From Rheinheimera sp. A13L (GTDB lineage Bacteria; Pseudomonadota; Gammaproteobacteria; Enterobacterales; Alteromonadaceae): DNA of 64,000 nucleotides. Both the position numbers and the translations under genes were made by a program. Within the stretch, counting starts at the first letter, position 1. The number at the start of each line of letters is the position of its first letter. Shown in pieces: positions 6,673 to 56,437 of the stretch. The stretch covers positions 248,001 through 312,000 of the forward strand of contig NZ_AFHI01000001.1 of the NCBI RefSeq assembly GCF_000217935.1, written 5' to 3'. The notes below the pieces were generated by a model that saw only the letters and a program-made list of their open reading frames with translations, did not search any database and was not told where the DNA came from.

Positions 6673-6690
6673 CACACACCTCTATTTTTC

Positions 6691-13248: not shown

Positions 13249-13250
13249 GA

Positions 13251-13892: not shown

Positions 13893-13951
13893 TATTCACA
13901 TCCTGCGCTCCTTGCGTCGTCTGCGCATCAGTTCCGTTGCACCTCATGCAC

Positions 13952-15652: not shown

Positions 15653-15933
15653 GTAGTGCTCGCTACCAGTCGAAGACGCTGAGTTAAGATATTTCTGTGA
15701 ACCAATTCGATCCTGTATCTGTAAGAGCATAACTGTGGCAAATAATCGTTCCCAAAGCCTCTTTACTGAATAAAAATCGATTAATATACGCCAAATCAGC
15801 AAGCTGCATAAACAATATATTCCTGTGTTTTTTTAGTCAAGTGACAATGGAGGTCACGCTAAAAACGAAATTTTATCAATGCTAGCTTTTGACATTCTAA
15901 AAAAGTCAGAGTCGATGTGCGCCAAGTTACCCC
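15653..15933. other. Junction between tnsC and the PLD cargo module
   Basis: This 281-nt AT-rich stretch separates the tnsC stop from the most likely start of the large PLD-like gene. It probably holds the promoter of the cargo unit. I see a weak inverted repeat (GTGAC/GTCAC around 15840-15858) and no insertion sequence, integrase gene or clear target duplication that would explain how the cargo entered the operon. Confidence 0.4.
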
Positions 15934-33477: not shown

Positions 33478-33858
33478 AAAAGAATCCATGTAATTTCAAT
33501 GCGGTTATTCTAATAGATAATGCAACAGATTACAGGAGCAGGGTGAAATTTTGCTGAACAGTAATGTAAGTAAAGACTGTTTAAGTGAAAAATGTCAGGC
33601 TATGTAATAAGCTCAGATTCGCAATCACCCAGACCGTCAGCCAAATCCCACCAATGATTACCGTATTTTTGTATTCTTGTAGTGACTTACTGCACCAGAT
33701 CACAACATTGTTCATAGATACCAACTTATATATCCCGTTGTCAGGACTGCAGATAGTTCACCGGGCAGGCCCCCCCAGTCACATAGTTTGTATGTTCATG
33801 GGGATCTTTTTGTTTGCCTACTGGTGAAGCTTATAATATCGAGTTTGAAAAAACTGGC
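33478..33858. other. Gene-free stretch between glmU and the TraB/GumN-like gene
   Basis: This 381-nt stretch holds the glmU promoter region at its left end (TAGAAT on the minus strand at about 33516-33511). An open frame on the plus strand at 33585-33827 has no ribosome-binding site, odd composition and no family resemblance, so I do not call it. I see no repeat or RNA gene. Confidence 0.5.
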
Positions 33859-37544: not shown

Positions 37545-37576
37545 TAGCTATCCTTCTTTAAGGGCTAGATCCAGCA

Positions 37577-39985: not shown

Positions 39986-40683
39986 GCAACCTGCTCCAGT
40001 TGGCTGGAAGAAACGACCTGGCCATCCAGTAAGTGAATTTGTCGGTGTGCCATAGTGGCATAACGCGGGTCATGGGTAACCAGACAAATGGTGGTGCCCT
40101 GAGCATGCAATTCGGCCAACAGAGCCATAACTGCATCGCCATTTTTGGAATCCAGGTTACCGGTGGGCTCATCGACCAACATTATGCCCGAATCAGCGGC
40201 AAGCGCCCGGGCTATAGAAACCCGCTGCTGCTGACCACCAGATAATTGATTAGGGAAAAGCTCGGCTTTATCAGCTAAACCAACTTTTTCCAGACACTGC
40301 AGTGCCCTTGCCTGACGTTGCTTCAGACTGTCACCACGATATTTGAGCGGTAAGGCCACGTTATCCAGCACAGTGTATTCATCAATCAGGTTAAAAGCCT
40401 GAAACACAAACCCAATCCGACGGCTGCGCATCTGTGCTCTCTGCCCGGCATTCATATCAGAGACCAATAAGCCGTCGATGTAATATTCGCCACTATCCGC
40501 GGTATCAAGCAGACCTAAAATATTCAATAAGGTAGATTTGCCGCAACCTGACGGACCACAAATAGCGACATATTCGCCTTCATGCACACTAAAACTAACA
40601 CCATTTAACACTGTTTGTTGTTGCTGGCCAGATTGAAAGCTTTTTTTAAGATGTTTGACTTTAAGCACATCAGTTTTCATCAT
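39982..40683 (-). CDS. ABC transporter ATPase, MacB/LolD type
   Basis: The 233-residue nucleotide-binding protein has Walker A GPSGCGKST, the Q-loop VFQAFNL, the signature LSGGQQQR, Walker B IMLVDEPTGNLDS and the H-loop VTHD. It belongs to the MacB/LolD/FtsE group of mechanotransmission ABC ATPases. It is encoded between the adaptor and the FtsX-like permease, overlapping the latter by 4 nt. Confidence 0.9.
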   Translation of the reverse strand: MMKTDVLKVKHLKKSFQSGQQQQTVLNGVSFSVHEGEYVAICGPSGCGKSTLLNILGLLDTADSGEYYIDGLLVSDMNAGQRAQMRSRRIGFVFQAFNLIDEYTVLDNVALPLKYRGDSLKQRQARALQCLEKVGLADKAELFPNQLSGGQQQRVSIARALAADSGIMLVDEPTGNLDSKNGDAVMALLAELHAQGTTICLVTHDPRYATMAHRQIHLLDGQVVSSSQLEQVA

Positions 40684-40691
40684 TTCAGTCC

Positions 40692-41921
40692 TTACTGGGT
40701 CAATTTAAGTTGTGAAACTGTACTATCAAGCTGTACATCGCTGACAATGATTCGATCACCCGGCACCAAACCCGATATCACTTCAATTTGCTGACCTGAG
40801 GCCTTACCAAACTGAACAGGAACCTTGGTTGCCACCTGATACGCATCCACCTTAAACAGCTCGATTTGAGCATCCTCAGCAACCCCGACTGGTCGGTCGA
40901 CAAAATTTACCTGACCACGGCTTTGGCCTCGGATCCGGGCATCGACCATCTGCATAGGCCGGATATCTGCACTTAAATCTTCAGGTAATAAAATATCGAC
41001 CTGCACTGCTCCATCAGCAACCACAGGATCAATCCGCAATACCTGGCCAGTCACAATCCCATGCCGGGTGTCCACCTCAGCACTGGCTCCAGGTTGCAAT
41101 AAACGCACCTGCATTTGTGGCACCTTCACCTCCGCGATCAACGGTGATAAGCTGCCGACCAACGCCAGTTCATCACCAATATTCACACTCTGTCCCAAAC
41201 TGACTGGTAAACGCTGTAACACCCCGGCAAGACCAGCCCGAACCACTAGTTGCTGCTGCTGATAGGCTGCATTGCTAAGCTCAGCTTCGGCTTGCTGGAT
41301 TTCCTCTTGTTGGATCTGCAGATGTTCCTGATGCACCTCGTGTAACGTATCAAACTTTTGTAGCTCTAGCTGATAACGCTCTTTTAACTGATCAGCCTTG
41401 ACACTGCTGCGTTTAGCGTCCATTGCCGAAATAATGCCAGCTGTAGCCAACGGGGTTTCAGCTTCGACTTGTAACCTGGCAAGTTCTGTCTCAGATTTAA
41501 GCTCGGACAAGCGCGAACGCTGCTCCAACAGTTCCCGCTGCTGCTCCAGTGATAATTTACGACCGTTGGTTTTTTTGTTATGCACATTGGTCATCGCCTG
41601 CTGCACAGCTATTTCCAGCGTCGGGTTTTTTAAAGTCAGAATAATGCTGTCCGGCTCAACCACTGCACCTGGACGTAACCTGATTTCATCCACAGTTGCC
41701 ATACTGCTTGCGGTGATCATGCGCTGATTCTGTGATTGCAAACTGCCATAGCCAGTGACTCTTTGCGTAAAATCACCGCTTTGCACTTTAGCAATACTGA
41801 CAGATGACAAACTCATGTATTGCATGCCTCCAGCAAAACCAATACTCCAACCGCTGATTAAAAGCAGTATCGATGTCAGACCTATGGCACCATAAACCAG
41901 AGTGCTAAAATTTTTCTTCAT
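40692..41921 (-). CDS. MacA-like periplasmic adaptor (HlyD family)
   Basis: The 409-residue membrane-fusion protein has an N-terminal TM helix at about residues 8-28, a coiled-coil hairpin (residues 120-210, Gln/Glu/Leu-rich) between the two lipoyl halves, and a beta-barrel domain (PLIAEVKVPQMQVRLLQPGAS). The family links an inner-membrane ABC pump to an outer-membrane channel. It lies 14 nt after the C39 exporter gene and 8 nt before the ABC ATPase gene, so exporter and efflux genes form one operon. Confidence 0.87.
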   Translation of the reverse strand: MKKNFSTLVYGAIGLTSILLLISGWSIGFAGGMQYMSLSSVSIAKVQSGDFTQRVTGYGSLQSQNQRMITASSMATVDEIRLRPGAVVEPDSIILTLKNPTLEIAVQQAMTNVHNKKTNGRKLSLEQQRELLEQRSRLSELKSETELARLQVEAETPLATAGIISAMDAKRSSVKADQLKERYQLELQKFDTLHEVHQEHLQIQQEEIQQAEAELSNAAYQQQQLVVRAGLAGVLQRLPVSLGQSVNIGDELALVGSLSPLIAEVKVPQMQVRLLQPGASAEVDTRHGIVTGQVLRIDPVVADGAVQVDILLPEDLSADIRPMQMVDARIRGQSRGQVNFVDRPVGVAEDAQIELFKVDAYQVATKVPVQFGKASGQQIEVISGLVPGDRIIVSDVQLDSTVSQLKLTQ

Positions 41922-41935
41922 AATGCATCCTATCT

Positions 41936-44041
41936 TTATGCTCTTGCTTTACAGGCAATCAACTCGGTTAAATCAATAACCCGATCCGCTGCCGCAATAG
42001 TCTCTTTGCGATGAGCTACACTGATCCTCGTCATATTTTTCTGTTTGAGGTATTCATTAACGCGATGTTCACTGACGCTATCAAGGTGGCTTGTAGCTTC
42101 ATCCAGGAATAAAATTCTGGGTTGGAAATAAAATGCCCGGGCTAACAGGATACGTTGCTTCTGTCCACCGGAGAGTGCACTCCCCAAATCGCCGACCTGA
42201 GTATGCAGGCCCATAGGCATGGCCTGAATTTCATCCCAGATAGCGGCACCTTGCAGAGCTTCTTTCACCAATTCAAGATTGGGCGATGGCTCAAAAAAAG
42301 TGATGTTTTCCAGCAAAGAACCGTTGAGTAACTGATCATTTTGCATCACCGTTGCGCAGTATTGGCGAAATTGGCGAAACCCTAATGATTTAAGAGGCAT
42401 GCCATCGAGCAATAAGTCGCCTTGCTGTGGCTGTATTAAGCCAGTCATGATTTTTAACAGCGTGGATTTACCCAAACCTGATCGCCCGATTATCGCAACG
42501 GACTCGCCAGCCTCCACCCTGAAATTCAGTTCCTGATAAAGCCAGGGGGTACTGTCACTATAGCGAAAATGCAGATTTCGTACTTCCAGAGCCCCAATCA
42601 CTTGCTCTGGTTTAAGTGCAACCCTGACTTGATCCTGCTCAGGCTTCTGCATAACGATATCGGACATACGACGCAGATAAGTGCCCGCAATCCGAAAACG
42701 GAAGATGTTATCAACTAAAGACTGGGCACTATCGGCAAATTGCTGGCGGTAGGCCAAATATGCCAGAAACATACCCAGGCTAAGCCCTCCTTCAATAATA
42801 AAAGAGGCACTAATCATCACAATAATCAAATATTCAATTCGGCCAAGCGCGTTCTGGGTAACATCACTGGCAATGGTTACTTTTTCTCTTTGGATACTGG
42901 CGTTTAGGGTATCGGCATAAAGGTTCATCCAACTTGACAGACGGTTATTCTCTTTCGCAAAGCTTTTTATCGGCATAATAGCCCGAATTGTTTCAATAAA
43001 ATGGCTGTTTTCCTTGGCGTGTTTACTAAGCTGCTGCTCCAGGTGTTCATTTTCTTTGTTGGTCAGGAAAAATCGGATCAAATACAGTGCAACCAGAAAG
43101 CCAACCGAAACCAGTGCGAGAGTCTTGTTGTAGTAAAACATGATAGTCAGGGTTGTAATGCTCAACAGTCCATCGACTATAGCCGTAATAAAGCCTCTGC
43201 TAATCATGCGCTGAACTTCATTAAATGCTTCGAATCTGGACTTGATATCCCCTACATGGCGACTTTCAAAAAAGCTGAGGGGCAAATGCAAAAGATGGCG
43301 CTGAATATTAGCTTTGACCTGAAAACTCAGGTTCTTATCCAAATACATTATGGCGGCCGAACGAATAACCTGAGCCAATACAGACAACATCAACACCAAT
43401 GCAAAACCGATAAAAACAGACCAGAGCATACTGGCTTGGCCTGAGTTTATCCCTTTATCTATAACAACCCGAATGTAATAGGGAGATATCAGTAACAACC
43501 CTTGCAACAACAACGCTATGACCAGAATTTTTCCGAGCGATGCCCACAAGCCATCCACCTTACCTATAAAGTGACGCAGCGGTATGCGGATCCGTTCATC
43601 TTTGCGTGCAAAATCACTTGATGGGACCAGTTCAATGACTATACCAGTGAAGGATTCTGAGACCTGATTCCAATCCAGATTTAAGCGTCCTTTAGCCGGG
43701 TCATGAATAGTGATCCCTTTGCTGCTCACTCTCGCAAGCGTGACAAAGTGATTAAAGTTCCAGTGCAGAATTGCCGGCTTTTTAACTTTTGCCAGTTGCC
43801 CTAGGTCAAGTTTCAGTACTCGTGCAGACAAGCCTAATTCGTCGGCAATATTGACGATTTGTTTTACCGTAACCCCATGTAAACCAGCAGGGTATTTCTG
43901 CCGCATAGCGAGCATATTGGTTTTAAATCCATGGTAGCAAGCCACCATGGCAATACAGGTAATCCCACACTCGGCCACTTCACTTTGCAAATAAACTGGC
44001 AGTTGCTGGCTTCTGAATTGAATATAATCAGAAATAAGCAT
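41936..44041 (-). CDS. Peptidase-containing ABC exporter with C39 domain
   Basis: This 701-residue exporter matures and exports double-glycine peptides. The N-terminal C39 peptidase has its catalytic triad: Cys25 (EVAECGITC), His99 (NFNHFV) and Asp114 (IHDPA). A six-helix ABC membrane domain follows, then the nucleotide-binding domain with Walker A GRSGLGKST, signature LSGGQKQR and Walker B ILFLDEATS. Such proteins cleave leaders after GG. Two peptides with GG leaders are encoded in this island, at 44869-45030 and 51145-51315. It lies 2 nt after the short HlyD-like gene. Confidence 0.93.
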   Translation of the reverse strand: MLISDYIQFRSQQLPVYLQSEVAECGITCIAMVACYHGFKTNMLAMRQKYPAGLHGVTVKQIVNIADELGLSARVLKLDLGQLAKVKKPAILHWNFNHFVTLARVSSKGITIHDPAKGRLNLDWNQVSESFTGIVIELVPSSDFARKDERIRIPLRHFIGKVDGLWASLGKILVIALLLQGLLLISPYYIRVVIDKGINSGQASMLWSVFIGFALVLMLSVLAQVIRSAAIMYLDKNLSFQVKANIQRHLLHLPLSFFESRHVGDIKSRFEAFNEVQRMISRGFITAIVDGLLSITTLTIMFYYNKTLALVSVGFLVALYLIRFFLTNKENEHLEQQLSKHAKENSHFIETIRAIMPIKSFAKENNRLSSWMNLYADTLNASIQREKVTIASDVTQNALGRIEYLIIVMISASFIIEGGLSLGMFLAYLAYRQQFADSAQSLVDNIFRFRIAGTYLRRMSDIVMQKPEQDQVRVALKPEQVIGALEVRNLHFRYSDSTPWLYQELNFRVEAGESVAIIGRSGLGKSTLLKIMTGLIQPQQGDLLLDGMPLKSLGFRQFRQYCATVMQNDQLLNGSLLENITFFEPSPNLELVKEALQGAAIWDEIQAMPMGLHTQVGDLGSALSGGQKQRILLARAFYFQPRILFLDEATSHLDSVSEHRVNEYLKQKNMTRISVAHRKETIAAADRVIDLTELIACKARA

Positions 44042-44043
44042 AA

Positions 44044-44748
44044 CTAGCCCTCCTTGATCAGTGCAAAGAAGTTATTACGCTTCACATTGAGCTCAAGCCG
44101 AACGTCTGCGGAGGGATGAAGCACACCAGGCTCATAAGGCAGCTGAAGTTGTATCCCCACATTAATTCTGCCTTGCTGAAAAGGTCCAATCACAGAGTGA
44201 ACCTTTCCCCTGGCCCACAGTGACCCGGCCCGCAAATTTACGACTTGCCCAGGTTGTATCTGATCAGGCTTAGTTCCTGTTAAAGAGAAAAAAAACAAAT
44301 GATCTTCATTAATACGCAACACTTTGGCAATGGTTTGAAAAGCCTGAGCAGTAGAGCCTGAGTTCACCATCGCAAAGTAGGTTCCAGACTCATTACTTTT
44401 CAACAAATCAACTTGCTCAAGCTGACTTTTAGCATCAAAAGATCGTACTTGTACTATAACTTGCTCACGATTTATGCGACTGCCATCCATATTCAGATGA
44501 CGTTCCACAACCACGGGTACAGGAGAAACAATAGGAAAATAGTTTGATTCATGAGCTTCCAGGTTTAATTGCTCGCGACTGACAAAGGGATAAACCAAAG
44601 CGAAAAAAATAAGCAGACCAAAAGCAATGAACATAATGACTATCGCTTTATCCAGCATATGTGACTGCTGGATAACAGATTTACCAAACTCTTGAGTTTG
44701 GTACTGATGCCGCAAAGCCTCTTTCCGAAATAGTTTGAGATAAGACAT
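44044..44748 (-). CDS. Short HlyD-like adaptor of the C39 exporter
   Basis: With the start at 44748 (AAGG six bases upstream) the protein has 234 residues, about half the length of usual bacteriocin-export adaptors. It has a TM helix at about residues 36-58 and lipoyl/barrel-like parts (GTYFAMVNSGSTAQAFQTIA; SLWARGKVHSVIGPFQQGR), but no long coiled-coil hairpin between them. It therefore may contact the outer-membrane channel differently or need the second adaptor (40692-41921). It is encoded directly before the C39 exporter gene. Confidence 0.78.
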   Translation of the reverse strand: MSYLKLFRKEALRHQYQTQEFGKSVIQQSHMLDKAIVIMFIAFGLLIFFALVYPFVSREQLNLEAHESNYFPIVSPVPVVVERHLNMDGSRINREQVIVQVRSFDAKSQLEQVDLLKSNESGTYFAMVNSGSTAQAFQTIAKVLRINEDHLFFFSLTGTKPDQIQPGQVVNLRAGSLWARGKVHSVIGPFQQGRINVGIQLQLPYEPGVLHPSADVRLELNVKRNNFFALIKEG

Positions 44749-44868
44749 CATAAGCCTTCTAATGCATCCAATACCGCCACTCTCGGGCCAATCATTGACG
44801 TCATCAGCCATTCGGTGACCCAATCAGACAGTACAACTATCTGAGTGCCCAAAGCATTTATGTTGTGA

Positions 44869-45030
44869 CTAAAATTTCGCAGATTCATCATTCAGTTCAA
44901 TGTAAACATCTTCAGGATTCAGCAAACCACCAACAATCTTATCCAGTTCATCCAAAGCAGTGACTTCAATAAAGCCTTCTGCTGTGATGGTTGCTGCTAG
45001 TGGCTCTTCCAATGCTATATAATTTTTCAT
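44869..45030 (-). CDS. Double-glycine leader peptide, candidate bacteriocin/microcin-like precursor
   Basis: A 53-codon gene lies 120 nt upstream of the adaptor-exporter genes with GAGG six bases before its ATG. The product begins MKNYIALEEPLAATITAEGF and has a leader ending LDELDKIVGG at residues 26-35, a good C39 cleavage site. The predicted product is the 18 residues LLNPEDVYIELNDESAKF. It is acidic, has no Cys, Ser/Thr cluster or Gly-rich part, and so is unlike known class II microcins; it may be a signal peptide rather than a toxin. No modification enzyme is adjacent. The assignment rests on the leader and position. Confidence 0.7.
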   Translation of the reverse strand: MKNYIALEEPLAATITAEGFIEVTALDELDKIVGGLLNPEDVYIELNDESAKF

Positions 45031-45132
45031 GTTGTACCTCATATACAAGTTGTGCCAGCCAGACTATGGATGCTAACCACTGGATATCACCATCACTGTG
45101 CTGTGTTTTTTTTATCACCAAAAAATAACCAT

Positions 45133-45159
45133 AAAAAACTACATACTATTCATGTAGTT
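45133..45159 (-). terminator. Terminator overlapping the luxR stop codon
   Basis: AACTACAT and ATGTAGTT form a perfect 8-bp stem with a seven-base loop and are followed by a T run on the minus strand. The second arm contains the ATG TAG end of the luxR-type gene, so the hairpin lies in the last codons. It would insulate the exporter operon from luxR transcription. Confidence 0.75.
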
Positions 45160-45771
45160 ATGAATGAGTTGTTGTCTGTTTGAACTACCTGTTTTTTGCA
45201 TACTATTAGTCAGATGAAAATTCACAGTCCGCTCTGTAATACTGAGAATCCGGCTGATTTCCCAAGAGGTTTTTCCATGAGCAGCCCAGTGAATACATTC
45301 AATCTCACGAGGAGTCAGACGCACCTCGACGCCAGGTTCTGTTTCATTTAACCGTCGATAAGTGTCGTAAACGTAAGTGCCTACAATTTGCCAAAACCAA
45401 CCTAGTTTCTCGGCAAACTTTGGCTCTACGTTTTGATTGGTAAACCCCAGAATCAGGCATGCATGATCTGGACGGGAAGTGACAATGGGGATCAGCAGGC
45501 TGGCTTGTGGTAAAGTTACTTTGGTCAATTTCTCAGAACCAGACCAGGATGGTTTATAGCAATGCTGACATACCTGTTTAAGTGCTGCTAAGGTAAGCTT
45601 TTGTTTGACTCCATCTGGCACTGAACCTATATAGGAGGTGCTGTCTCGATGAACAATAAAGCAGCACCAGTCTATATGAGGCAGTTCTGAGAATTGAATC
45701 AAATAACGTTCTAACTGGATCAGTGTTTCTACCTGATCCAGCTCAGCCAAAGTTTGCTCAAAGAAACTCAT
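45139..45771 (-). CDS. LuxR-family transcriptional regulator (solo)
   Basis: The 210-residue protein ends in a LuxR-type HTH (LTPREIECIHWAAHGKTSWEISRILSITERTVNFHL) of the quorum-sensing subgroup. The N-terminal 140 residues resemble a shortened autoinducer-binding domain (HIDWCCFIVHRDSTSYIGS), but several usual ligand residues are not recognisable. No luxI-type synthase is in the window. It sits between the 42-aa secreted peptide gene and the exporter operon, so it is a likely regulator of the cluster. Its ligand is unknown. Confidence 0.82.
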   Translation of the reverse strand: MSFFEQTLAELDQVETLIQLERYLIQFSELPHIDWCCFIVHRDSTSYIGSVPDGVKQKLTLAALKQVCQHCYKPSWSGSEKLTKVTLPQASLLIPIVTSRPDHACLILGFTNQNVEPKFAEKLGWFWQIVGTYVYDTYRRLNETEPGVEVRLTPREIECIHWAAHGKTSWEISRILSITERTVNFHLTNSMQKTGSSNRQQLIHNYMNSM

Positions 45772-45788
45772 GGTGCCTCCCTGAACCT

Positions 45789-45917
45789 TTAATCAATATC
45801 GCAGCTACTGGTCAATTTACACAAGGACAATGGTGAAACGGTTTCACTCTCAGACTGACTCTCAGCCATCAATGCTGAAGGAAATATGAGTACAAACGCA
45901 ATAACAATGACTTTCAT
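45789..45917 (-). CDS. Small secreted peptide with two cysteines (42 aa)
   Basis: A 42-codon gene with a strong ribosome site (AAGGGG, about 6 nt upstream) encodes a Sec signal peptide MKVIVIAFVLIFPSALMA, followed by a 24-residue mature part that is Ser/Glu-rich and ends LCKLTSSCDID. The two Cys, five residues apart, could form a small disulfide loop. It ends 17 nt before the luxR-type start, so the two are probably cotranscribed. A signalling peptide is possible; no family is known to me. Confidence 0.55.
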   Translation of the reverse strand: MKVIVIAFVLIFPSALMAESQSESETVSPLSLCKLTSSCDID

Positions 45918-46016
45918 GAAATTCCCCTTTAATAGTAGTGAAGTCAGGGAAATTTTGAATGAGAAACAGGGCGGGGGAAATAACGGGAATCTAATTTTAC
46001 TGTGGTTAATTTATCA

Positions 46017-48158
46017 CTACTTTATAAGGTAAACGGATAAATCAATGCCACTGAGACTTGTCATGCGTGTCCCTCTGCTGCTGTAAAGCACAAGACTCCC
46101 ATTTTGATTAATCGCAAAACGAGGCCGCATTTTTTCGTAAGGGAAACTGGTTTGGCGAAACTCGCCACTGACAAAATCCAACTGATTTAACCATGTTGAT
46201 ACAAAATCAAAATCGCTCCAAATCAAGGTCTGATTTTTGACGTACCAGCGACTAATAAATTCGGTGTTAATGCTATATCCGAGAGCACGAACCTGCCGCA
46301 ACTCACTGTCTAACTGATGTAAAGCACCGTTTTCAGTCACCGCAATAAAGCCATTGCCGTATTCTCTGGCAGACCTGTACCCTAACGCGAGCTTTTGGCT
46401 GCGCTGACTGGCACGATCAAATTGATGCAATTCCCAATCTCCCGCGATCAGTTGGCCAAAATAAACTCTTTGAGCATCCGATGAAAACGCTGCCTGGCTG
46501 TCCAGAAGACTTTTCGATGAAGAAACGATCTCCACAGAGCTTTTGGATACATTCACCACTAGCAGTTGTTCTCCCACATGCAATAGCAAGACCCCCTGTT
46601 CTGGATGATGATCCAGTAATTCGAGTTTTTTATGAGTGCTAAAAAGGATTTCTTTATTACCGCTGCTTTGATCATACTTCACCAGCATACGTTTATTCTG
46701 ATCACTGACAACTGCATAATATATATGGTCATGTTCAGCATAACTCATCATGAGCGTTCCACTGACTGCGTTAACAATCCGTCCTTCGGACAATTCAGGG
46801 GTGACAATCAGTTCACGAAAAACAGGATCAACAGCATCTGAATTACTCAATAAATACAGTCTGTTATCTGAATTAGCAATTGAGAAATCCGTAATCTGAT
46901 TTTCGCCCTGTTCCAACAAAATCTGCTCACTACCCGACGATAAGCTAACAACACTAAGATGCTGTTCATCCAGTTTCATCAGCGAATTACCGTTCAACCA
47001 TTCCAATCGGCCAACACGGGCCGGTATGGCTTTCGAATACACTGTACGCAGCGATGTTACCTCTTGTATTTCCAGCCAATATTCCTGACCACCACGCAAA
47101 ATAGCACTTGCCAGCCACTGACCATCCGGGGAATGTACTGAATGATAAATATGATCCAGAGCGCTGCTGCGAGCTTGCACCCGTTCTAAAGCATTGGACT
47201 GGCTTTGCCAGCGGTATAGCATGGCTGTTCCTTGTTCTTCGTCCATTGCATTGATATACCACTCTCCTTGTTGCTGACCTTGGCTTACCCGGAAAATCAT
47301 GAAAAAGTTTACAAGAGGCTGTTCGCTTACAACTCGCTTATTCTCATCGAGCCGTAAACGATAGACCGAAGAGTTACCCACCACTTCATCCACAACAAAA
47401 AGTGAGTTGTCAGTATTAAACTCCAGCATTGATGGTTGCTGTGCACTGGTAGACAAAAGGTGAATATCTTTGGTTTTGCGGTTTTTCAGATAAATTTGCC
47501 AAGGTTCACTCTGGTTTAAACGACCAATAAAGGCCAGATATTGCCCATCCGGAGAAATTGTCAGCCCCTTTTTCTCGCCGGATATGGTCGTAATCACCTG
47601 ACTGGGTAGATGCCAAGACTCAGAAATATCAGATGCAGGTTTTCCCCCTGGAGAAAAAAATAATAAGAGAAGAGTCAAAACACCCAAAACAACAAAGCAA
47701 GCTATAGTGAGAATTTTGACGGGTTGAAAAACAACAGGTTCAAGCTGTTCCGGCTTTGCGGTATAACCACCAGACACTTCAGCGATACCCTCTATCATTG
47801 TAGCTGCGATCAGCTTCGGATGATCTGGGGTGACAAAATCCGTATATTCACTGATATAGCAAACCAACTTATAGCCACGTTTAGACAGTGATTTAATGTA
47901 TTTGGGGTCAGCGACATTAGTATCGTCGAACAGGTTTCTGAGTTTTTTTATTGTTCCCCTGACAGCTGTATCACTGACTACACGGCCAGACCAGACATGT
48001 TCATGCAATTCTTGCAGGCTGATGTAACGATCCCGATGTAAATACAAGTAAGCAAGCAGCTCCAATACCTGAGGTTCGGCTTCTAACTCTTTTTCGCCAG
48101 AAAACAAAAAGTTGCTACTGGTATCGAAAATAAATTCACCAAGAATAACCTTAGACAT
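46017..48158 (-). CDS. CadC-like membrane regulator: winged helix, TM, beta-propeller (second copy)
   Basis: The 713-residue protein repeats the layout of the 35391-37544 gene: OmpR-type winged helix at residues 5-100 (EPQVLELLAYLYLHRDRYIS...SKRGYKLVCYI), a TM helix at about 147-168, and a long periplasmic propeller-like region (LTISPDGQYLAFIGRL; HSPDGQWLASAIL). The two proteins differ strongly in sequence. Lying next to luxR, the secreted peptide and the S9 peptidase, it is likely to sense a peptide or envelope signal and control the cluster. The direct targets are unknown. Confidence 0.82.
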   Translation of the reverse strand: MSKVILGEFIFDTSSNFLFSGEKELEAEPQVLELLAYLYLHRDRYISLQELHEHVWSGRVVSDTAVRGTIKKLRNLFDDTNVADPKYIKSLSKRGYKLVCYISEYTDFVTPDHPKLIAATMIEGIAEVSGGYTAKPEQLEPVVFQPVKILTIACFVVLGVLTLLLLFFSPGGKPASDISESWHLPSQVITTISGEKKGLTISPDGQYLAFIGRLNQSEPWQIYLKNRKTKDIHLLSTSAQQPSMLEFNTDNSLFVVDEVVGNSSVYRLRLDENKRVVSEQPLVNFFMIFRVSQGQQQGEWYINAMDEEQGTAMLYRWQSQSNALERVQARSSALDHIYHSVHSPDGQWLASAILRGGQEYWLEIQEVTSLRTVYSKAIPARVGRLEWLNGNSLMKLDEQHLSVVSLSSGSEQILLEQGENQITDFSIANSDNRLYLLSNSDAVDPVFRELIVTPELSEGRIVNAVSGTLMMSYAEHDHIYYAVVSDQNKRMLVKYDQSSGNKEILFSTHKKLELLDHHPEQGVLLLHVGEQLLVVNVSKSSVEIVSSSKSLLDSQAAFSSDAQRVYFGQLIAGDWELHQFDRASQRSQKLALGYRSAREYGNGFIAVTENGALHQLDSELRQVRALGYSINTEFISRWYVKNQTLIWSDFDFVSTWLNQLDFVSGEFRQTSFPYEKMRPRFAINQNGSLVLYSSRGTRMTSLSGIDLSVYLIK

Positions 48159-48365
48159 ACACCCAAAATAGCCACAAAAAACCTAATGGCATTATTGTCT
48201 GTAAAAACTTACAGGGCAAGGTAATTATCCGTAGTAGGTAAACTTGTAAAAATTTAGTTTATGTGCGGAGTTTTACATCCTTTAAGGCTGTTTGCCATAT
48301 AGCTTAGAAAACGGCAGTTAAACAGAGCAAGGCAGAGGCGTTGCTGTTGTCTTGCAGAGTACGGG

Positions 48366-50789
48366 TTAGTTCACTTGTGCACACTGCCGCAGCCAAGTCG
48401 ACTGAGCCTCAAGCATTTGTTGGATGCTCTCTCTGTAACTGTAGGCATGTCGTTCTTTATTCAGTAATAACAATTGGGCAGGTACCTGATGGGCTTGTAA
48501 TGCCTGAAACATCATTTCAGATTGTAATGGAGCTGTACCAGGGTTTTCATCAGCCAAACCGTGGATCAGCAATACAGGGGTTTTTATCTTGTCCGCATGG
48601 AAAAATGGGGATAGTTGCTGATACAAATCAGGTACCTGCCACAAGGTTCGTTTTTCGCCCTGAAAACCCAAAGGGGTCAGTGATCGATTGTAAGCACCAC
48701 TTCGTGCTATTGCACAGCGAAAATCAGTACGTTCTGTCAGTAAGCTTAAAACACTAAAAGCACCATAAGAGTGTCCCATCAGTACCAGCCGGGTAGTATC
48801 AATACGGCCCGTTTGTTCCAGAGTATTAATCAAAGACGACATATTAAGTTGCTGCTGCTGCATAAAAGTATCATTTGGTTCTTGTCCGTCTTGGCGAACT
48901 ATAGGGATCTGACTAGCATCCACAACGGCATAGCCATCTAATAGTGCAATCTCAGGTCCTTGCGGATCAAACAGCTGAAATCCAAGGTGTTGTGATGGTT
49001 TTACTTGTTGCTGATGACTATGATACTCGCGAGGGTACAGCCAAATCACAGCGGGTAATAACTCATCATTCTGCTTTTTCGGCAGATACAGCTGGCTGTA
49101 CAGCTGCACACCATCGCCACGTTTAAATTCCAGTAACACAGGCTGTGGTAATGAAAGCAGATCATCGGAATGCCAATCATATAAAGGTTTTTCGTCGTTG
49201 TTGTTATGGTGTATTTGCAAAAAGGGGGCTCTCTGAGACGTCTCGCTGGCAAGCATCAGCCATTCTTTCTCACCCACTATCCTGAGATAAACAGGTGTTC
49301 TTTGTTGATCAGCACTATCGTTTTTAAAAGCAACGCTCTGTTCAGACGCTTTTCTGCCTTGCCTGACCAAGTAAACCCCATCCCCCCAGCGGTGCTGCCC
49401 CTCTGCTTGAAAATACACCTCCTGTCGTTGATTACTGATGAGTTCAATTCTCCCATCTGGCAGCAACTGGGTAAGCAGCTCTCCGGGAAATTCAGCCCCT
49501 TTGGTATAATCGTACTGAGTTAACAGACTTTCTTTCTGCTCTGCTGTGCTCAGTTGCACACTCCAGTACCTGAGCTGCTTTTGACCTGCATGAAAATCGC
49601 TATACACAAGCCGGCCTTCCTTTGTCAGATAGAATTGATGTAAACGCCAGCTTGTTTTAAAAAGTTCTGTTGCTCGTTTTGTAAATGGTGCATCAAAAGA
49701 CATCAAGGCATCACGATATCTGGCGTCAACTCTATGGCCCTGCGGTTCAACGCTCTCCACCCAAATCACTGTAGCAGGCAGATCCGGTCGCCACTGCACA
49801 AGACGAGCGCCTTCGGCGGCAGCATCTGGATCCCTTGCCCGCTGTCGATCCGTCTGCAGCTTTGGTAAGACTGCTTTTACCTCTCCGGTTAAAATATCGA
49901 CAACCTGATACTCCCGAGCCAACCTATTGATGCGGATCCCAGGCTGTACTTCGTCCGCAAGATGCTGGACCAGCAGATACCGCCCATCCGGGGAAACACT
50001 GATGGCCTCTAATAAAAGCTCTGACGTCAAAGGCCGTACTTCACCATTTTTATGCAGCAGAACAGCTTGTTGACGCAGCAAAGCTTTAAAATTCCGCCGG
50101 GCTAACTCCGTATCAAGTGTATTTCTATAGATCCGAGTCTGAACTGACAGATTATCTGAACTTTGTAGCGTAGCAGCAGGAGGTTTTGCAGCATTGATAG
50201 AAAGCATGCGACTGTGCCGCAGAATGATGCTCTGGCTATCAGGCATCCATACGATGGAAGGAGAATCTAATTGTCCTGACACCCCAATATCCGACCAGGG
50301 TTCAAGCTTTTGCTGAGATATATGAAAGCGCCAGATATCCAGCACTTTGTCACTTACGCCAATTAAAGCAAAGCTTTCAGAGTCGGGAGCCCAACGCACA
50401 TCACGGACTGTGCGCTCTGGCAGTGACAGGTCTTTACTATGACCAGTACTGATATGAATTAGTTTTACTGTGTCGATTCGAGTATTGCTGACTTCCAAAG
50501 GTCGAGCCAGATAAAACTCACGCCCTAAGAACTCTATTCGCTCCGAATTACTGTCCTCGTGAAGGGATGGGTATTTGTTACCATTTGCCAGAACAAGCCA
50601 CTGCCGATCCGGCGATAACCGCATAAAATCCGGTCCTACACTTTTCATCAGGCGCTGGTAATCAAATGACAATTGACCTGATGCCTGGTCAGCCTCTTCT
50701 TGTGCTGTTAGAGGCAATATACTGAGGGCAAAACATAAAAACAAAATGTAGCGGATAGTCATCTGCACATCAGGCCATCTAAGTGACAT
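48366..50789 (-). CDS. S9-family prolyl-oligopeptidase-like peptidase, exported
   Basis: The 807-residue protein has an N-terminal signal sequence (ILFLCFALSILPLTAQ), a beta-propeller of about 500 residues, and an alpha/beta-hydrolase peptidase domain with Ser674 (GHSYGAFS), Asp747 (HGLADENPG) and His781 (KERHAYSY). GGAGG lies five bases before the ATG at 50789. S9 enzymes cut short peptides, usually after Pro, and cannot take folded proteins. Encoded 355 nt after a peptide precursor in the same direction, it may trim the exported peptide, remove leaders or degrade competing peptides (inference). Confidence 0.87.
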   Translation of the reverse strand: MSLRWPDVQMTIRYILFLCFALSILPLTAQEEADQASGQLSFDYQRLMKSVGPDFMRLSPDRQWLVLANGNKYPSLHEDSNSERIEFLGREFYLARPLEVSNTRIDTVKLIHISTGHSKDLSLPERTVRDVRWAPDSESFALIGVSDKVLDIWRFHISQQKLEPWSDIGVSGQLDSPSIVWMPDSQSIILRHSRMLSINAAKPPAATLQSSDNLSVQTRIYRNTLDTELARRNFKALLRQQAVLLHKNGEVRPLTSELLLEAISVSPDGRYLLVQHLADEVQPGIRINRLAREYQVVDILTGEVKAVLPKLQTDRQRARDPDAAAEGARLVQWRPDLPATVIWVESVEPQGHRVDARYRDALMSFDAPFTKRATELFKTSWRLHQFYLTKEGRLVYSDFHAGQKQLRYWSVQLSTAEQKESLLTQYDYTKGAEFPGELLTQLLPDGRIELISNQRQEVYFQAEGQHRWGDGVYLVRQGRKASEQSVAFKNDSADQQRTPVYLRIVGEKEWLMLASETSQRAPFLQIHHNNNDEKPLYDWHSDDLLSLPQPVLLEFKRGDGVQLYSQLYLPKKQNDELLPAVIWLYPREYHSHQQQVKPSQHLGFQLFDPQGPEIALLDGYAVVDASQIPIVRQDGQEPNDTFMQQQQLNMSSLINTLEQTGRIDTTRLVLMGHSYGAFSVLSLLTERTDFRCAIARSGAYNRSLTPLGFQGEKRTLWQVPDLYQQLSPFFHADKIKTPVLLIHGLADENPGTAPLQSEMMFQALQAHQVPAQLLLLNKERHAYSYRESIQQMLEAQSTWLRQCAQVN

Positions 50790-51144
50790 TTATGCCTCCA
50801 ACAACGCAGGTCTTTATCTCCACGTCTAAAGTAGTTCAATTGATACCAGTTCTGGTTATGAGTCAGCTTGGACCCTGGTTTATTTATGCGTTACTGATTC
50901 AAAGGACTCAGACATTCATCATTGAACAAGGCAGGGCTACTCGCACTCTGCCTCGTTCACCTGAACCAGGAGGCACAATGAATCTGTTTGACAGCAAACC
51001 ATATACGCAAATGTTTTAGGACCTGCAGGTGCTTTGTCTAGTCACAGCCAAGCTATAGCCAGACAAAGCAACATAGAGAGGTACAAAAAGATGCGAATTC
51101 AGTGGCGCAGCCTATTCCGAATTCAGATTTTCCAGCAAAAGGCC
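50790..51144. other. Gap between the precursor peptide gene and the S9 peptidase gene
   Basis: This 355-nt stretch contains a stem-loop (listed separately) and the ribosome site of the peptidase. On the plus strand a 13-codon frame at 50978-51019 has a strong GGAGG site but no other support. I see no insertion sequence or RNA gene. Confidence 0.45.
50924..50958 (-). other. Intercistronic stem-loop after the two-cysteine precursor
   Basis: GAACGAGGCAG and CTGCCTTGTTC, read on the minus strand, form an 11-bp stem with one G-U pair around a 13-base loop. No T run follows, so it is not a standard terminator. It could protect the 3' end of the precursor mRNA and so raise precursor over peptidase expression, a common arrangement in peptide operons. 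Confidence 0.45.
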
Positions 51145-51315
51145 TTACTCAATCTTCTGGTTCTCCTTATAGCTACCACAGGCGAAACCGATACATTCTG
51201 AATCGTCTGCTTGCTCTGGATTCGTGCCACCTGATATCTCATCCAGCAACTCCGGCGAAACCTCATCTGGAGTAGCAGAAGCTTTCTTTTTAGTCAGATC
51301 TTTAAACTCAGTCAT
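51145..51315 (-). CDS. RiPP precursor with double-glycine leader and two-cysteine core
   Basis: With the ATG at 51315 (GAGG six bases upstream) the peptide has 56 residues. The leader is MTEFKDLTKKKASATPDEVS followed by PELLDEISGG (residues 21-30), a typical C39/NHLP-like cleavage site. The core, 26 residues, begins TNPEQADDSE and continues CIGFACGSYKENQKIE, with Cys41 and Cys46 four residues apart. A radical SAM/SPASM gene lies 176 nt upstream, so the Cys are probable donors for thioether (sacti- or ranthipeptide-type) crosslinks. The sequence matches no RiPP family I recognise. Confidence 0.8.
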   Translation of the reverse strand: MTEFKDLTKKKASATPDEVSPELLDEISGGTNPEQADDSECIGFACGSYKENQKIE

Positions 51316-51374
51316 ATTTAACCTCATAAATGAATTAATACATGGTTTTCTATTAAACCAGTTGGACCATTTTC

Positions 51375-51454
51375 CGCAGAAACTCTGCGACTTGTCGTTA
51401 CAACAAGATGTTTAACAATGACTCAGAAAACTATCTGCGTTTTTAACTGAGTCA
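51375..51454 (-). promoter_or_regulatory. Three consecutive stem-loops before the precursor gene
   Basis: Between the radical SAM and precursor genes are three inverted repeats: TGACTCAG/CTGAGTCA (51419-51426 and 51447-51454), CTTGT/ACAAG (51391-51407) and CGCAGA/TCTGCG (51375-51389, three-base loop). None is followed by a T run on the minus strand. They may process or stabilise the mRNA so that precursor is made in excess of enzyme, or the first may be an operator. Confidence 0.45.
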
Positions 51455-51491
51455 GATTTTGTTATAGGATTGTTTGTGTCATGCAAAAACA

Positions 51492-53075
51492 TTAAGAAAC
51501 AACCAGCATATCTTCTCTGGTTTTTATATATGCCTCTGCCACACTGGCTCTAAATCTTTTTCCGTATCCATCACAATAGTTAGAATGCAGTGTGCCGGTT
51601 TTCTCTGAAGCATACACAGCACATCCGCCCCCACAATGCAGAGCATAACGACATTGTGAACAAACAGGATTTGACACGACACTTCTTGAGCGCCAATTGT
51701 TCTCCTGATCATTGAAAAACATTAATCCGGCATATTTATCTACAGTACCAATTCGAATGTTTTTATCTCCAGTTTTTTCCCAGCAGGCATAAATGTCTGC
51801 AAGTGCATCAAAAAGATACATTCTGTCATGTGCAGCACAGTAATTAGTCTTAATACCTGAGGCAGCTTTCTCTGGGTTTTTAAATATACCTATGGCCTGA
51901 TTTCTCATTTTGTCACCATCAACAGAAAACAATTTGGTCTGCGGATGCTGAACACGCATAGTCTCCATTTCTTTATTTAGCTTTAATGTAGTCATACATT
52001 GATTCTTATCAGTGCTGTCATTAAGAGCATGTATAGGCGCAAGGTAAGCTCCAAAATTGGCTTTTTCATGCCATTTTTTAGAGTGAATGAAAGAAGATAG
52101 CTCAGGTAAATCATTAATGTTTCCGTAGTCAACATTGACACGAACATTAATAAAAACCCCTTTTGACAAGGCCAAGTCAATATTACTGGCAATTTTTCTG
52201 AAACTTCCCGAACCATCCGGATAGATCCGTCTTTTATCATGTTCTTCAGGTTTACCATCTAAAGTAATCTGAATTTCGCTGATACCATCCTTACCTAACA
52301 GATCATGGTAAAACTCAAGTTCAGTGCCGTTGCTTGTTGCTGAGAAGCTAGCCGAGCTCAGCGTTTTCGCTTTATCCATAATGTAACTGATGATGTCTCG
52401 GTTCGCTTTTAAAAGAGGCTCCCCACCAAAAAACGAGATATGCCTGTGTTGCCTTTCTTCAGACAACTCAAACCCGTGCTTTTCTTCGATGAGTGGCATA
52501 TTGGCAAAGATACGGTCTACCGTTTCTTTATCCATCAACTTCAGAAATTTTTTAAAACTCGGCTCTTTTCTCATGTGATCCTGAAAGCAATATGGGCAGC
52601 GTAAATTGCAATCATAGGTGGGCATAAAAAGGTAACGAGGCATATTCATAGATGATTTACGCCGTTTCACTTCCACATAACGTTTAAAAAAGGCCAACTC
52701 TTCATCACTTGTTCTTTTTGTTAAAAAGCCATAGTGCACAAGCTGTTGAAATGTTTCGTCTGTCGGCTTCTCTGGCTCACCCTGGAAATCAAAATCATCT
52801 TGCCACTCTCCGTATAGCGGTCGAGGTGGGCGCTTAAGTTCAAGCTTCCTTAGGTATGCAGCCACCTTTTTTGATACCAATATTCTATGCCCCAGATAAC
52901 CATGAACAAGGACCATAGCCTCATCGTTATCCGGTAAGTCGACATAAATCGTGTATTGGCTTGTTCGATGAGCACTCAATGATGGACCATATGAAGGCTG
53001 CTCCCTTAAAACCGCACCATCCACCGGCTGATCGTTTTGGTCAGATAATCTAAAAATCTGAATAACATTTTCCAT
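51492..53075 (-). CDS. Radical SAM/SPASM peptide maturase
   Basis: With the ATG at 53075 (AGG six bases upstream) the enzyme has 527 residues. Residues 40-125 resemble a PqqD-like peptide-recognition region (VLVHGYLGHRILVSKKVAAYL). The radical SAM core has Cys156-x3-Cys160-x2-Cys163 (CNLRCPYC). The C-terminal SPASM region has NYCAAHDRM...YACWEKTG, then CSQCRYALHCGGGC and NYCDGYG, enough Cys for two auxiliary iron-sulfur clusters. Such enzymes make thioether or carbon-carbon crosslinks in peptides. The adjacent two-Cys precursor is the obvious substrate. It is divergent from the glycosyltransferase gene. Confidence 0.9.
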   Translation of the reverse strand: MENVIQIFRLSDQNDQPVDGAVLREQPSYGPSLSAHRTSQYTIYVDLPDNDEAMVLVHGYLGHRILVSKKVAAYLRKLELKRPPRPLYGEWQDDFDFQGEPEKPTDETFQQLVHYGFLTKRTSDEELAFFKRYVEVKRRKSSMNMPRYLFMPTYDCNLRCPYCFQDHMRKEPSFKKFLKLMDKETVDRIFANMPLIEEKHGFELSEERQHRHISFFGGEPLLKANRDIISYIMDKAKTLSSASFSATSNGTELEFYHDLLGKDGISEIQITLDGKPEEHDKRRIYPDGSGSFRKIASNIDLALSKGVFINVRVNVDYGNINDLPELSSFIHSKKWHEKANFGAYLAPIHALNDSTDKNQCMTTLKLNKEMETMRVQHPQTKLFSVDGDKMRNQAIGIFKNPEKAASGIKTNYCAAHDRMYLFDALADIYACWEKTGDKNIRIGTVDKYAGLMFFNDQENNWRSRSVVSNPVCSQCRYALHCGGGCAVYASEKTGTLHSNYCDGYGKRFRASVAEAYIKTREDMLVVS

Positions 53076-53499
53076 GCTGCACCTACTTGAACAATTTTTA
53101 ATACAAGACAGATAAAATTTGTTGCTTACTAAACAAGTCACTTTGTCTTGAACGTCGCTATATTATTCCCTTTTAATTACCCCATATAGCAACATGCAAA
53201 ATTCCATATGGCCAATACAATGTTCCTTTAGCCACAAGATTTATAGGTTTCCGGTTGATCGTCAACCTGCAAGATATGACAGGTTGATCTTCAGTGCCTC
53301 CAGGTTCCATTGATTTCGCCCATTTTCTATCCTATCGCGTCGACAATTAGAAAAAGTGATGGTGAAAAGCTGATCGCTACGGATTTAAGTTATAGCGTTA
53401 GAAAACTGCGTTACCTGCTACTTTCTACAGGTTTCGACTTTGGAATAGTTGGTTAGACTGATATTTATGTCTACGTACCAGAAACAATCCGGAGTCGCC
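53076..53499. promoter_or_regulatory. Divergent promoter region with repeated GGTTGATC motifs
   Basis: This AT-rich 424-nt region separates the radical SAM gene from the glycosyltransferase gene. CAACCTG (53263-53269) and CAGGTTG (53280-53286) form an inverted repeat, and GGTTGATC occurs twice in the same direction (53253-53260 and 53282-53289). This looks like a shared operator for both directions. No small gene is evident. Confidence 0.4.
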
Positions 53500-54711
53500 A
53501 TGAAAATTCTTATTTGTACTTTTGATAGTTTTGGGTTTCTTTACCCTATGATAGGACTGGCGAATAGCTTCAAACGACTAGGATATGACGTTCATTTTAT
53601 TGGTAGCAGAAATATTAAAAATATTGTTCTTGAACAAGGAATGCAATGGATAGAACATGATAAAGAAAATAAAGATGCATTTTTAATTAAACGCTTTGGT
53701 GATCTTGAGGATATTTCAAACCAGATCAAGTATGTTGAATATGCAGTTTCAAATTCTAGCTATAACTTAGTGATAACATCTCCTTTATCTTTCGGCACCA
53801 TTTTAGCGGCTGAAAGATATAATCTTCGAGTTGTTACTCTTGGTTTTTTTTCATATCTATGGATCAACGATGTAAATATATTTGGTCTCCCTAAAAAGGT
53901 TCATGACCACTGTAAGTGGCGTACCACCGATATGTTTAATACTTATATGAAATCAAGAGCGAGTCTTGGTTTCCAAAAAGTGAACCAAGATTTAGCTTGT
54001 ATTCCTTTTACGGGTGATTTGATGCTTCAAAGAAGCGTTCCCGGCCTAATGCATAAAATAGGGGGTATACCTGAAAAAACCCTTCCCTTTGGGTCTTGTA
54101 TATGGGAACCGGAAACAGTGACTGACACAGAAGAAATGTTAGAAAATTGGCTTAACCTTACTAAGAATAGAGATCGAAAAGTATTGTATGTAAATCAAGG
54201 ACGAACATTCTATATGAAGGGGTTCTGGGGTTTGATCAAGTCTATATTTGGCACTTCTGACTATTTAGTGATAGCTGATGTAAACAGAATGGATGGCTTT
54301 GTCGGAGAAGTACCAGACAACTTTTTTCTTGCTAATCATATACCACTCAGAGCTGTAGTTACTCATGCAAGCTTATTTATATCAGCTGGGCATACAACTT
54401 CAGTACTTGCCGCTCTTGAAAATGCCATCCCCATGCTTTTGTTTCCTAGCGGAGGAGAAACAGTAGACAACTCGTTTTATTGTGAAAAAATTGGAGTGGC
54501 AACTGTTTTTAATGAAGACTCTTATAATGAGCAACAAATCTTTGAAACGGTTGAGCGCATTATAAAGGAGCAAAAATTCAGGGGCGCCTGTATACAAATG
54601 AGTGATGAATTTGGCCTTTACAAAGGGGATTCTTACCGCTCTGGATTAATAAAATCAACAGCAATGCGCTTGTCTGGTGATCTATACATTCCTTCACCAC
54701 TGACACTATGA
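53500..54711 (+). CDS. GT1/MGT-like glycosyltransferase
   Basis: With the ATG at 53500 (GGAG five bases upstream) the protein has 403 residues. The N-terminal Rossmann half starts MKILICTFDSFGFLYPMIGL, and the C-terminal half has the nucleotide-sugar-binding pattern (LFISAGHTTSVLAALENAIPMLLFPSGG...VDNSFYCEKIG) of UDP-glycosyltransferases. The usual His of the HGG motif appears as GHTT. The gene is visibly more AT-rich than its neighbours, suggesting recent acquisition. It could glycosylate the cluster's peptide or an unrelated small molecule. It is divergent from the radical SAM gene. Confidence 0.75.
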   Translation: MKILICTFDSFGFLYPMIGLANSFKRLGYDVHFIGSRNIKNIVLEQGMQWIEHDKENKDAFLIKRFGDLEDISNQIKYVEYAVSNSSYNLVITSPLSFGTILAAERYNLRVVTLGFFSYLWINDVNIFGLPKKVHDHCKWRTTDMFNTYMKSRASLGFQKVNQDLACIPFTGDLMLQRSVPGLMHKIGGIPEKTLPFGSCIWEPETVTDTEEMLENWLNLTKNRDRKVLYVNQGRTFYMKGFWGLIKSIFGTSDYLVIADVNRMDGFVGEVPDNFFLANHIPLRAVVTHASLFISAGHTTSVLAALENAIPMLLFPSGGETVDNSFYCEKIGVATVFNEDSYNEQQIFETVERIIKEQKFRGACIQMSDEFGLYKGDSYRSGLIKSTAMRLSGDLYIPSPLTL

Positions 54712-54797
54712 ATATCAACACTCCCCAGGAGTGCACTGTGATGCGATAATTTCAATAGTTAGCGATGTACTGATGGCTTTGCTCACTAGTTAGTTTC

Positions 54798-55967
54798 TGA
54801 CTAGTCCTGAAATAAGCTGCCCCTTATTTCAGTAAAACACCCGATGAACTTCATCGGGCGTTTTGTATTTTAGAGCAAGATGAAGGCGACGACTATTGTA
54901 GACATTTACAGATTCGTCGACCATTTTCGTTGCTTGTTCAATAATTGCAGGCTTGGCCAGCAGATACTCGTTTTTAAGGATGCCATTCATCCGCTCTGCT
55001 AAGGCATTTTGATAGCAATCATAACCATCCGTCATTGAACACGTTACGTCATAACGTGCGTGCAGGGCCTGATAAGCTGACGGACAGTACTGGATGCCGC
55101 GGTCTGAATGATGCACCAGCGGCTGTTGTTTCAAACGTCGGTGCTTGAGTGCTTGTCGATACGCCTGCATCACACTGTCTGTCCGGTGGTTGTCATGGAC
55201 GTGATAGCCCATAATTTTCCTCGACCACGCATCGGTAATTAAACTCAGATAGGCTTCGCCACACGCTGTTGGTAAGTAGGTGATATCCGCAACCCACAAC
55301 TGCTCTGGTCCCGTTGGTGTGATTTTTTTCCGGCCCCGTTTTAAGCAAATTGGGATGGCAGCGAAAGCGATGATGGCTTTGGGTCGTCTTGTGATAGGCG
55401 CGTTGTGTTGACACGAGCAAACGATGGTCTTTGAGTAAGTCCAATAGTTTGTCGCGACCAATTTGAATGTGATGGTGTTGCTGCAGTAAATACTGCAATT
55501 TGCGTGCGCCAATCCGAGGCTGTAACATCCGCTCAGCCCGAACGAATTCAAGCACTTGATATTCAGCCGCGGCAACACGTTCATCGCGTTTTAATACTTC
55601 TACTACAGCTTCAAAGAACTCAGCTCGTTGCTTGGTGTCTGCAAGTTGTTGTTCTAACTTTTTAATTCGCTGCTCTGGAGTTAAAGGTGAAGGATCTGAC
55701 ATGGGATGCCCAGCGAATGAAATGGCGATGACGCTAAACTCCAATCTAATTTACCCCACTTACGAAGCCAAACCAACACAGTGCTACGGCCTTGAATACC
55801 ATAGCTGTCTTGCGCCTGTTTGTAAGTCAGTTCGCCTTTTTCGACTTGCTCAACAACCGCCAATTTGAAGGCAAGGGAATAATCTTTCTGTGAACGCTTA
55901 ACTATTGAATTCATGACACTCTCCACATTTAAGCATAAAAAGTGTCAACGTTATTTAGGACGGGTCA
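54798..55967 (-). mobile_element. Decayed IS3-family insertion sequence
   Basis: The element is about 1.17 kb. Its ends are imperfect inverted repeats: TGACTAGTCCTGAAATAAG at 54798 and, on the other strand from 55967, TGACCCGTCCTAAATAACG. It contains a transposase with the IS3 DDE core that is broken into several frames. It sits between the glycosyltransferase gene and the atpC terminator and marks the right edge of the accessory island. No clear target duplication is visible. Confidence 0.8.
54829..55914 (-). pseudogene. IS3-family transposase, frameshifted (orfA/orfB)
   Basis: OrfA starts at 55914 (MNSIVKRSQKDYSLAFKLAV) with the usual HTH, but its frame is lost after LRKWGKLDW and its normal continuation (MSDPSPLTPEQRIKKLEQQL) lies in another frame. 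That frame seems to have lost the orfA-orfB junction (EVLKRDERVAAAEYQVLEFV) and runs out at about 55193. The catalytic part resumes in a third frame: Asp in LWVADITYLP, Asp in HHSDRGIQY, Glu in NALAERMNGIL. At least two frame changes and a probable deletion make active transposase unlikely. The comparison with intact relatives is from memory. Confidence 0.75.
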
Positions 55968-55975
55968 ATTCGCAT

Positions 55976-56020: not shown

Positions 56021-56437
56021 TTATTTTTTGCGAAGTTTCTGAATTAAACGTAACTGGGCAATAGCTTCAGCCAATTGAGCTGCCGCTTCTGCGTAGTTGA
56101 AGTCTGCGCCTGCATGTTGCATCGCTTCTTCTGCACGTTTCTGAGAGGCTAATGCAGCCTGCTCATCCAGATCTTCAGCCCGTACCGCAATGTCGGCAAG
56201 CACTGTGATGCTGTGAGGCTGAACTTCCAGCACACCACCAGCAACATAAATCAGATGCTCTTCGCCAAATTGTTTGATGATACGAACCATACCAGGCTTG
56301 ATTCCAGTAAGAAGCGGAATGTGACCAGGTAAAATACCCAGCTCACCTTCACTGCCTGTTACCTGAATGGATTCCACCAGACCAGAAAAAATCCGTTCTT
56401 CGGCGCTTACCACATCCAGTTGTACTGTCATTGCCAT
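56021..56437 (-). CDS. atpC: F-type ATP synthase epsilon subunit
   Basis: This 138-residue subunit of the F1 central stalk regulates ATP hydrolysis. It has the N-terminal beta-sandwich ([17 protein letters not shown]...[20 protein letters not shown]) and a C-terminal helical hairpin rich in Ala and Glu. It is the last gene of the atp operon. The first of two close ATGs is used because AGGAG lies six bases before it. Confidence 0.97.

Follow-up and report, generated by a model that had tools for sequence, protein, structure and literature searches.

A radical SAM maturase and its two-cysteine precursor in a Rheinheimera gene island that may make a secreted, probably glycosylated peptide

The window, a stretch of 64,000 nucleotides from Rheinheimera sp. 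A13L, carries a gene island between atpC and glmU (Table 1). On its minus strand a radical SAM/SPASM maturase comes first and a 56-residue precursor peptide follows 176 bp downstream, and we find both open reading frames where the first-pass annotation had placed them. That annotation described the two genes as a pair, which is an incomplete account, as the island adds a glycosyltransferase, a C39 exporter, regulators, an S9-type peptidase and a second double-glycine peptide. An insertion element with an integrase core lies between the transferase and atpC; it is missing in three relatives, in which the transferase reads through with a slightly different tail. Some congeners are without the island: the alignment to genome G015 passes from window position 37532 to 55972 with 97 bp in between, and G021 has the two flanking genes, atpC and glmU, nearly adjacent. 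In genome G014 this gap (L062:6800-18345) is occupied by a different exporter cluster, which includes several short peptides of double-glycine type and in which no maturase was seen; the atpC-glmU gap appears to be a peptide-cluster hot spot. A scan for promoters and terminators returned fewer sites than in shuffled sequences. Elsewhere in the window, Tn7-like transposition genes (TnsA, TnsC and TniQ/TnsD by Pfam; 9570-20475) adjoin glmS (20634-22463), and a 705-residue protein in the TnsB position gives no Pfam match at 1e-5.

Table 1. Features of the atpC-glmU island and its flanks (window positions).
Feature	Position	Strand	Basis or remark
glmU	32113-33489		flank
MacB-like permease	37577-39985	minus	
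ABC ATPase	39982-40683	minus	by eye
HlyD-family protein	40692-41921	minus	
C39 peptidase/ABC exporter	41936-44041	minus	
259-aa protein before exporter	44044-44823	minus	HlyD-like by eye and by place; no Pfam match
Second double-glycine peptide, without Cys	44869-45048	minus	ATG at 45030 likely
LuxR-type regulator	45139-45771	minus	
CadC-like regulator (Trans_reg_C)	46017-48158	minus	Pfam
S9-type peptidase	48366-50789	minus	Pfam
RiPP precursor, 56 aa	51145-51315	minus	leader to Gly30, then core TNPEQADDSECIGFACGSYKENQKIE
Radical SAM/SPASM peptide maturase, 527 aa	51492-53075	minus	Pfam, NCBIfam, conserved Cys
RRE-like N-terminal domain of the maturase (putative)	52629-52973	minus	segment modelled alone; Foldseek, weak E-values
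Glycosyltransferase, EryCIII/MGT type (GT1-type)	53500-54711	plus	divergent from maturase
Insertion element, integrase core (ORFs)	54829-55926		Pfam
atpC	56021-56437		flank

The precursor consists of the leader MTEFKDLTKKKASATPDEVSPELLDEISGG followed by the core TNPEQADDSECIGFACGSYKENQKIE; its start codon is an ATG at 51315 preceded by GAGG, and its leader ends in VSPELLDEISGG, which we take to match the double-glycine consensus. The acidic, 26-residue core with two cysteines that the first-pass annotation described is confirmed, with a net charge of −4 and the cysteines at positions 41 and 46. With the window as reference, comparison to three congeners gives pS of 0.28-0.31 and pN of 0.008-0.023 (10-11 synonymous and 1-3 nonsynonymous differences, 1-3 of the 56 residues changed), and both Cys41 and Cys46 are retained in all three. 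Because synonymous differences far exceed nonsynonymous ones, the precursor is a real gene under strong purifying selection, and the same counts rule out a chance open reading frame. NCBIfam models gave no match for any of the seven peptides tried, namely the window precursor, the second window peptide, those of L016 and L026, two of L021 and an opposite-strand peptide of L015. The second double-glycine peptide of the island (pN 0-0.041 against pS 0.083-0.33) lies directly beside the exporter, a placement that would also suit a two-cysteine peptide that stays in the cell as a substrate or cofactor-type peptide while the exporter serves its neighbor; we regard this as very improbable, given that the leader of the precursor ends in GG as well and that exporters accompany the relatives.

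The maturase is recognized as Radical_SAM by Pfam (E = 9.8e-11), with a SPASM domain by TIGR04085 (45 bits against a cut-off of 27), and the ten radical SAM (CX3CX2C) and SPASM cysteines (C156, C160, C163, C413, C431, C472, C475, C481, C485 and C501) are invariant in 16 of 16 aligned family members. A common set of generic maturase models matches all 16 (best E near 1e-41), and the StsB (sactipeptide) model matches 15 of them (best E 2.1e-17). The window maturase falls far under the cut-off of each maturase model listed: the top curated model, TIGR04463, gives 124 bits against 525, followed by CefB (NF038107; 123 against 600) and PapB (NF047865; 119 against 340), while SCIFF gives 71 against 425 and the DynA and YhhB models match weakly (94 against 450 and 57 against 445). 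Membership in TIGR04463, CefB, PapB, SCIFF, geopeptide and the other listed models is rejected on these curated cut-offs, which were applied to the window maturase, the other 15 members being judged by E-values. With the peptides matching no NCBIfam model either, the view that the pair fits no named family holds for those tested, and, since even the top curated model reaches only 124 of 525 bits, its reaction cannot be transferred to the window maturase. A phage origin was also considered and rejected, as 20 weak matches in a phage collection include none with 80% coverage, as was a defence role, for which PADLOC yields only a viperin-type match of 39 bits. PHROGs returns a radical SAM family without a set function (phrog_1802, 119 bits), and a plasmid search gave 91 records, all below 60% identity.

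By profile and by fold, the closest solved chain is CteB (PDB 5WGG, 5WHY), with 17-18% identity in the fold alignment. An AF2 model of the full maturase has a mean pLDDT of 72 and is closest to CteB and TigE, and a model of the isolated 115-residue N-terminal segment has a pLDDT of 84, with three strands and three helices. The nine top Foldseek matches of that segment are leader-binding RiPP proteins, with a best E of 0.024 and none reaching 0.001; they include TbiB1, TigE, a heterocyclase and lasso B1, which presumably bear an RRE, and CteB appears only at rank 26. A sequence profile of the segment finds no RRE in the PDB, its matches being an HMG-box and other unrelated proteins (best E 0.0026). 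The PqqD-like N-terminus of the first-pass annotation thus has the fold ranking for it, and the modest E-value and the profile search against it; we consider a PqqD/RRE-like fold likely, the ranking being the one line of evidence that points to it.

The maturase family was studied at 21 loci in Rheinheimera, Pseudoalteromonas, cyanobacteria and myxobacteria, such that a description of the pair as gammaproteobacterial is right for the host but too narrow for its relatives. Among the other genomes of the genus, 3 of 21 have it; the figure is 5 of 295 in a family sample (own genome included) and 1 of 369 in a class sample, that one being the own genome. With the query's source genome included in each case, it occurs in 3 of 108 genomes in the Pseudoalteromonas genus set, in 2 of 388 sampled from a cyanobacterial class and in 4 of 145 from one order of myxobacteria. 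Scanning species genomes by pattern, an approach that is not exhaustive, yielded 19 loci; identity is 45-97% for 16 of them and 23-28% for the remaining three, which are distant. In a tree with two distant outgroups all 21 members group together (100/99), and this is the only grouping that we use, because the program warned of long branches. A complete peptide with leader and Cys-bearing core is present in 18 of the 21 clusters, beside the maturase or, in Pseudoalteromonas, just past the transferase; two further precursors (L019, L020) are cut within the leader by a contig end, and none was found near the maturase of L046. The Radical_SAM and SPASM domains, with a leader-plus-core precursor alongside across genomes, support the reading of these genes as a radical SAM RiPP pair.

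Several of these clusters hold further genes. Beside the L046 maturase (5690-7929) lie a 2OG-Fe(II) oxygenase and a flavoprotein that by eye looks like a halogenase. All three Pseudoalteromonas loci encode a one-Cys peptide on the opposite strand, with GG followed by [TN]NPN (L015:9631-9783, L016:9511-9687, L047:10122-10286), which has NP after GG in common with the window core. A second radical SAM gene is found in Pseudoalteromonas clusters (L015:12976-14079), and the Myxococcus cluster L021 (7694-9586) encodes a 631-residue protein with a squalene-hopene-cyclase C-terminal match.

Core motifs were counted over 15 non-redundant loci with 17 cores, taking the four Rheinheimera copies as one and leaving aside the one-Cys opposite-strand peptide of Pseudoalteromonas. 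The core cysteines, on whose conservation the original proposal had staked itself, are kept, with at least two in 16 of 17 cores and at least one in every core (just one in that of L025). Conservation does not extend to the C-x4-C spacing, the cysteines of the relatives being mostly 3-7 residues apart; 14 of the 15 loci have a pair in this range, against a mean of 7.3 in shuffled cores (0 of 5000 shuffles reach it). An aromatic residue at Cys+3, a motif chosen after inspection of the cores, occurs at 7 of 15 loci (shuffled mean 2.6; 17 of 5000 reach this) and 14 times in total (3.15; 0 of 5000), the per-locus counts being the fair ones because a single Myxococcus locus contributes 6 of the 14. 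Positions +2, +4 and +5 show no excess of aromatics over shuffles. The narrower C-x-[TSG]-[YF] is present at 6 of 15 loci (0.92; 0 of 5000), C-x-x-[YF] is missing at 8 of 15, and an Asp immediately before Cys is somewhat enriched (6 of 15; 2.95; 220 of 5000). When one core is taken per clade (11 cores), C-x-[TSG]-[YF] is found in 5 (shuffled mean 0.67; 0 of 10000), C-x-x-[YF] in 5 (1.78; 83 of 10000) and a Cys pair in 9 (4.99; 57 of 10000). The window core holds two Cys+3 aromatic units, CIGF (41-44) and CGSY (46-49). A fixed aromatic position after Cys, together with the weak DynA and YhhB matches, could also be accommodated by a maturase that makes a C-C or other crosslink at aromatics in a cyclophane-like manner, the two cysteines then serving as a disulfide or metal site; this seems improbable, as no feature of the cores is more constant than Cys (present in 17 of 17) and Cys-directed maturase models outscore the cyclophane models.

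The top NCBIfam match of the glycosyltransferase is the macrolide family TIGR01426 (58 bits against 260), and it has weak similarity to the OleI self-immunity enzyme. Its subfamily is present at 10 of the 21 loci, or 7 of 18 when Rheinheimera is counted once, in Rheinheimera, Pseudoalteromonas, Prochloron, Calothrix and Myxococcus, and missing at 11; the profile was built from the ten copies found, and is informative on absence at the remaining loci rather than on presence. Absence across the whole genome was examined for 13 genomes (5 matched), which do not include those of L046, L048 and L049, and for the latter two it was judged within 18 kb around the locus. The Calothrix transferase scores 119-777 bits against the locus copies of ten genomes (self 901) and at most 50 against their other genes, except for a second Myxococcus copy (312 bits), which lies about 79 kb off and has, by pattern search, no such leader peptide beside it. 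In all three Pseudoalteromonas loci the transferase and maturase genes share 4 bases. We find C-x-x-[YF] at 6 of the 7 loci that have the transferase and at 1 of the 8 that lack it (p 0.010), or, with clades collapsed, 3 of 4 and 1 of 6 (p 0.19); Prochloron has the transferase and lacks the motif.

The macrolide and OleI similarities would fit a transferase that acts elsewhere, for example in self-protection, beside a maturase that forms an ordinary ranthipeptide- or sactipeptide-like thioether, such as Cys46-Glu51 (C-x4-E) as by PapB, which is among the three top models. For PapB, PMC9413430 reports Cys-Xn-Asp with n from 0 to 6, and also Glu. This combination is possible, if somewhat unlikely: at the one spacing counted, C-x3-[DE] is not enriched (2 of 15 loci against a shuffled mean of 3.9) and is absent from the window core, and in four lineages the transferase subfamily follows the maturase.

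From gene content, purifying selection, the cross-phylum pair, motif enrichment and co-occurrence we infer each reaction of a pathway by which the locus would yield a peptide that is secreted, modified by the radical SAM enzyme and probably glycosylated; its steps are thioether formation, addition of a sugar and Gly-Gly cleavage with export, and we place its probability at roughly 0.5. The leader would be bound by the N-terminal domain of the maturase, and the maturase would form a thioether between one or both cysteines and a residue close by, the best candidate partner being the residue three positions after Cys (Cys41-Phe44 in CIGF, Cys46-Tyr49 in CGSY). A thioether is favored because the closest solved chain, CteB, is a thioether-forming maturase. 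The divergently oriented glycosyltransferase would attach a sugar, the most likely site being Ser48 or Tyr49. Cleavage after Gly30 would remove the leader, with export of the 26-residue core, a step proposed because of the known role of C39 exporters, one of which is present in the island. A bolder reading, which we think unlikely and put forward tentatively, is that of a distinct RiPP class common to gammaproteobacteria, cyanobacteria and myxobacteria, in which one maturase would close thioether rings of four residues between Cys and an aromatic, at C-x-[S/T/G]-[Y/F], and the ring itself would be glycosylated by a dedicated enzyme of GT1 type. In the literature searched we recognized no account of radical-SAM thioether peptides with a dedicated glycosyltransferase, and the available portions of PMC12710340, PMC9062424 and PMC9413430 do not describe this maturase family. 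If our proposal is correct, the family would bring together two different modifications on a single small secreted peptide and supply a new crosslink motif as well as a compact set of enzymes for making peptide rings that bear sugars, with a predicted product to be sought in organisms such as Prochloron and Calothrix.

Glycocins likewise join a peptide glycosyltransferase to a double-glycine leader and an exporter, as in the window island, but their transferases are of another type and are not known to come with a radical SAM maturase, whereas here a GT1/MGT-type enzyme accompanies one. PapB and other ranthipeptide maturases share with the window enzyme a radical SAM-SPASM architecture acting on a Cys-bearing core, and differ in score (119 against 340 bits) and in the C-x3-D/E motif, not enriched here. 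CefB, of the Cys-every-fifth type, is one of the two top models, and the window C-x4-C equals a single five-residue step; its score is 123 of 600 bits, however, and the mixed Cys spacings of the relatives form no five-residue repeat. TIGR04463 (rSAM_vs_C_rich) is the top model for the window maturase (124 of 525 bits), whose family's targets often have just two cysteines. The CteB/SCIFF maturases, though remote in sequence (17-18% identity in the fold alignment; 71 of 425 bits for the SCIFF model), provide the nearest solved structures.
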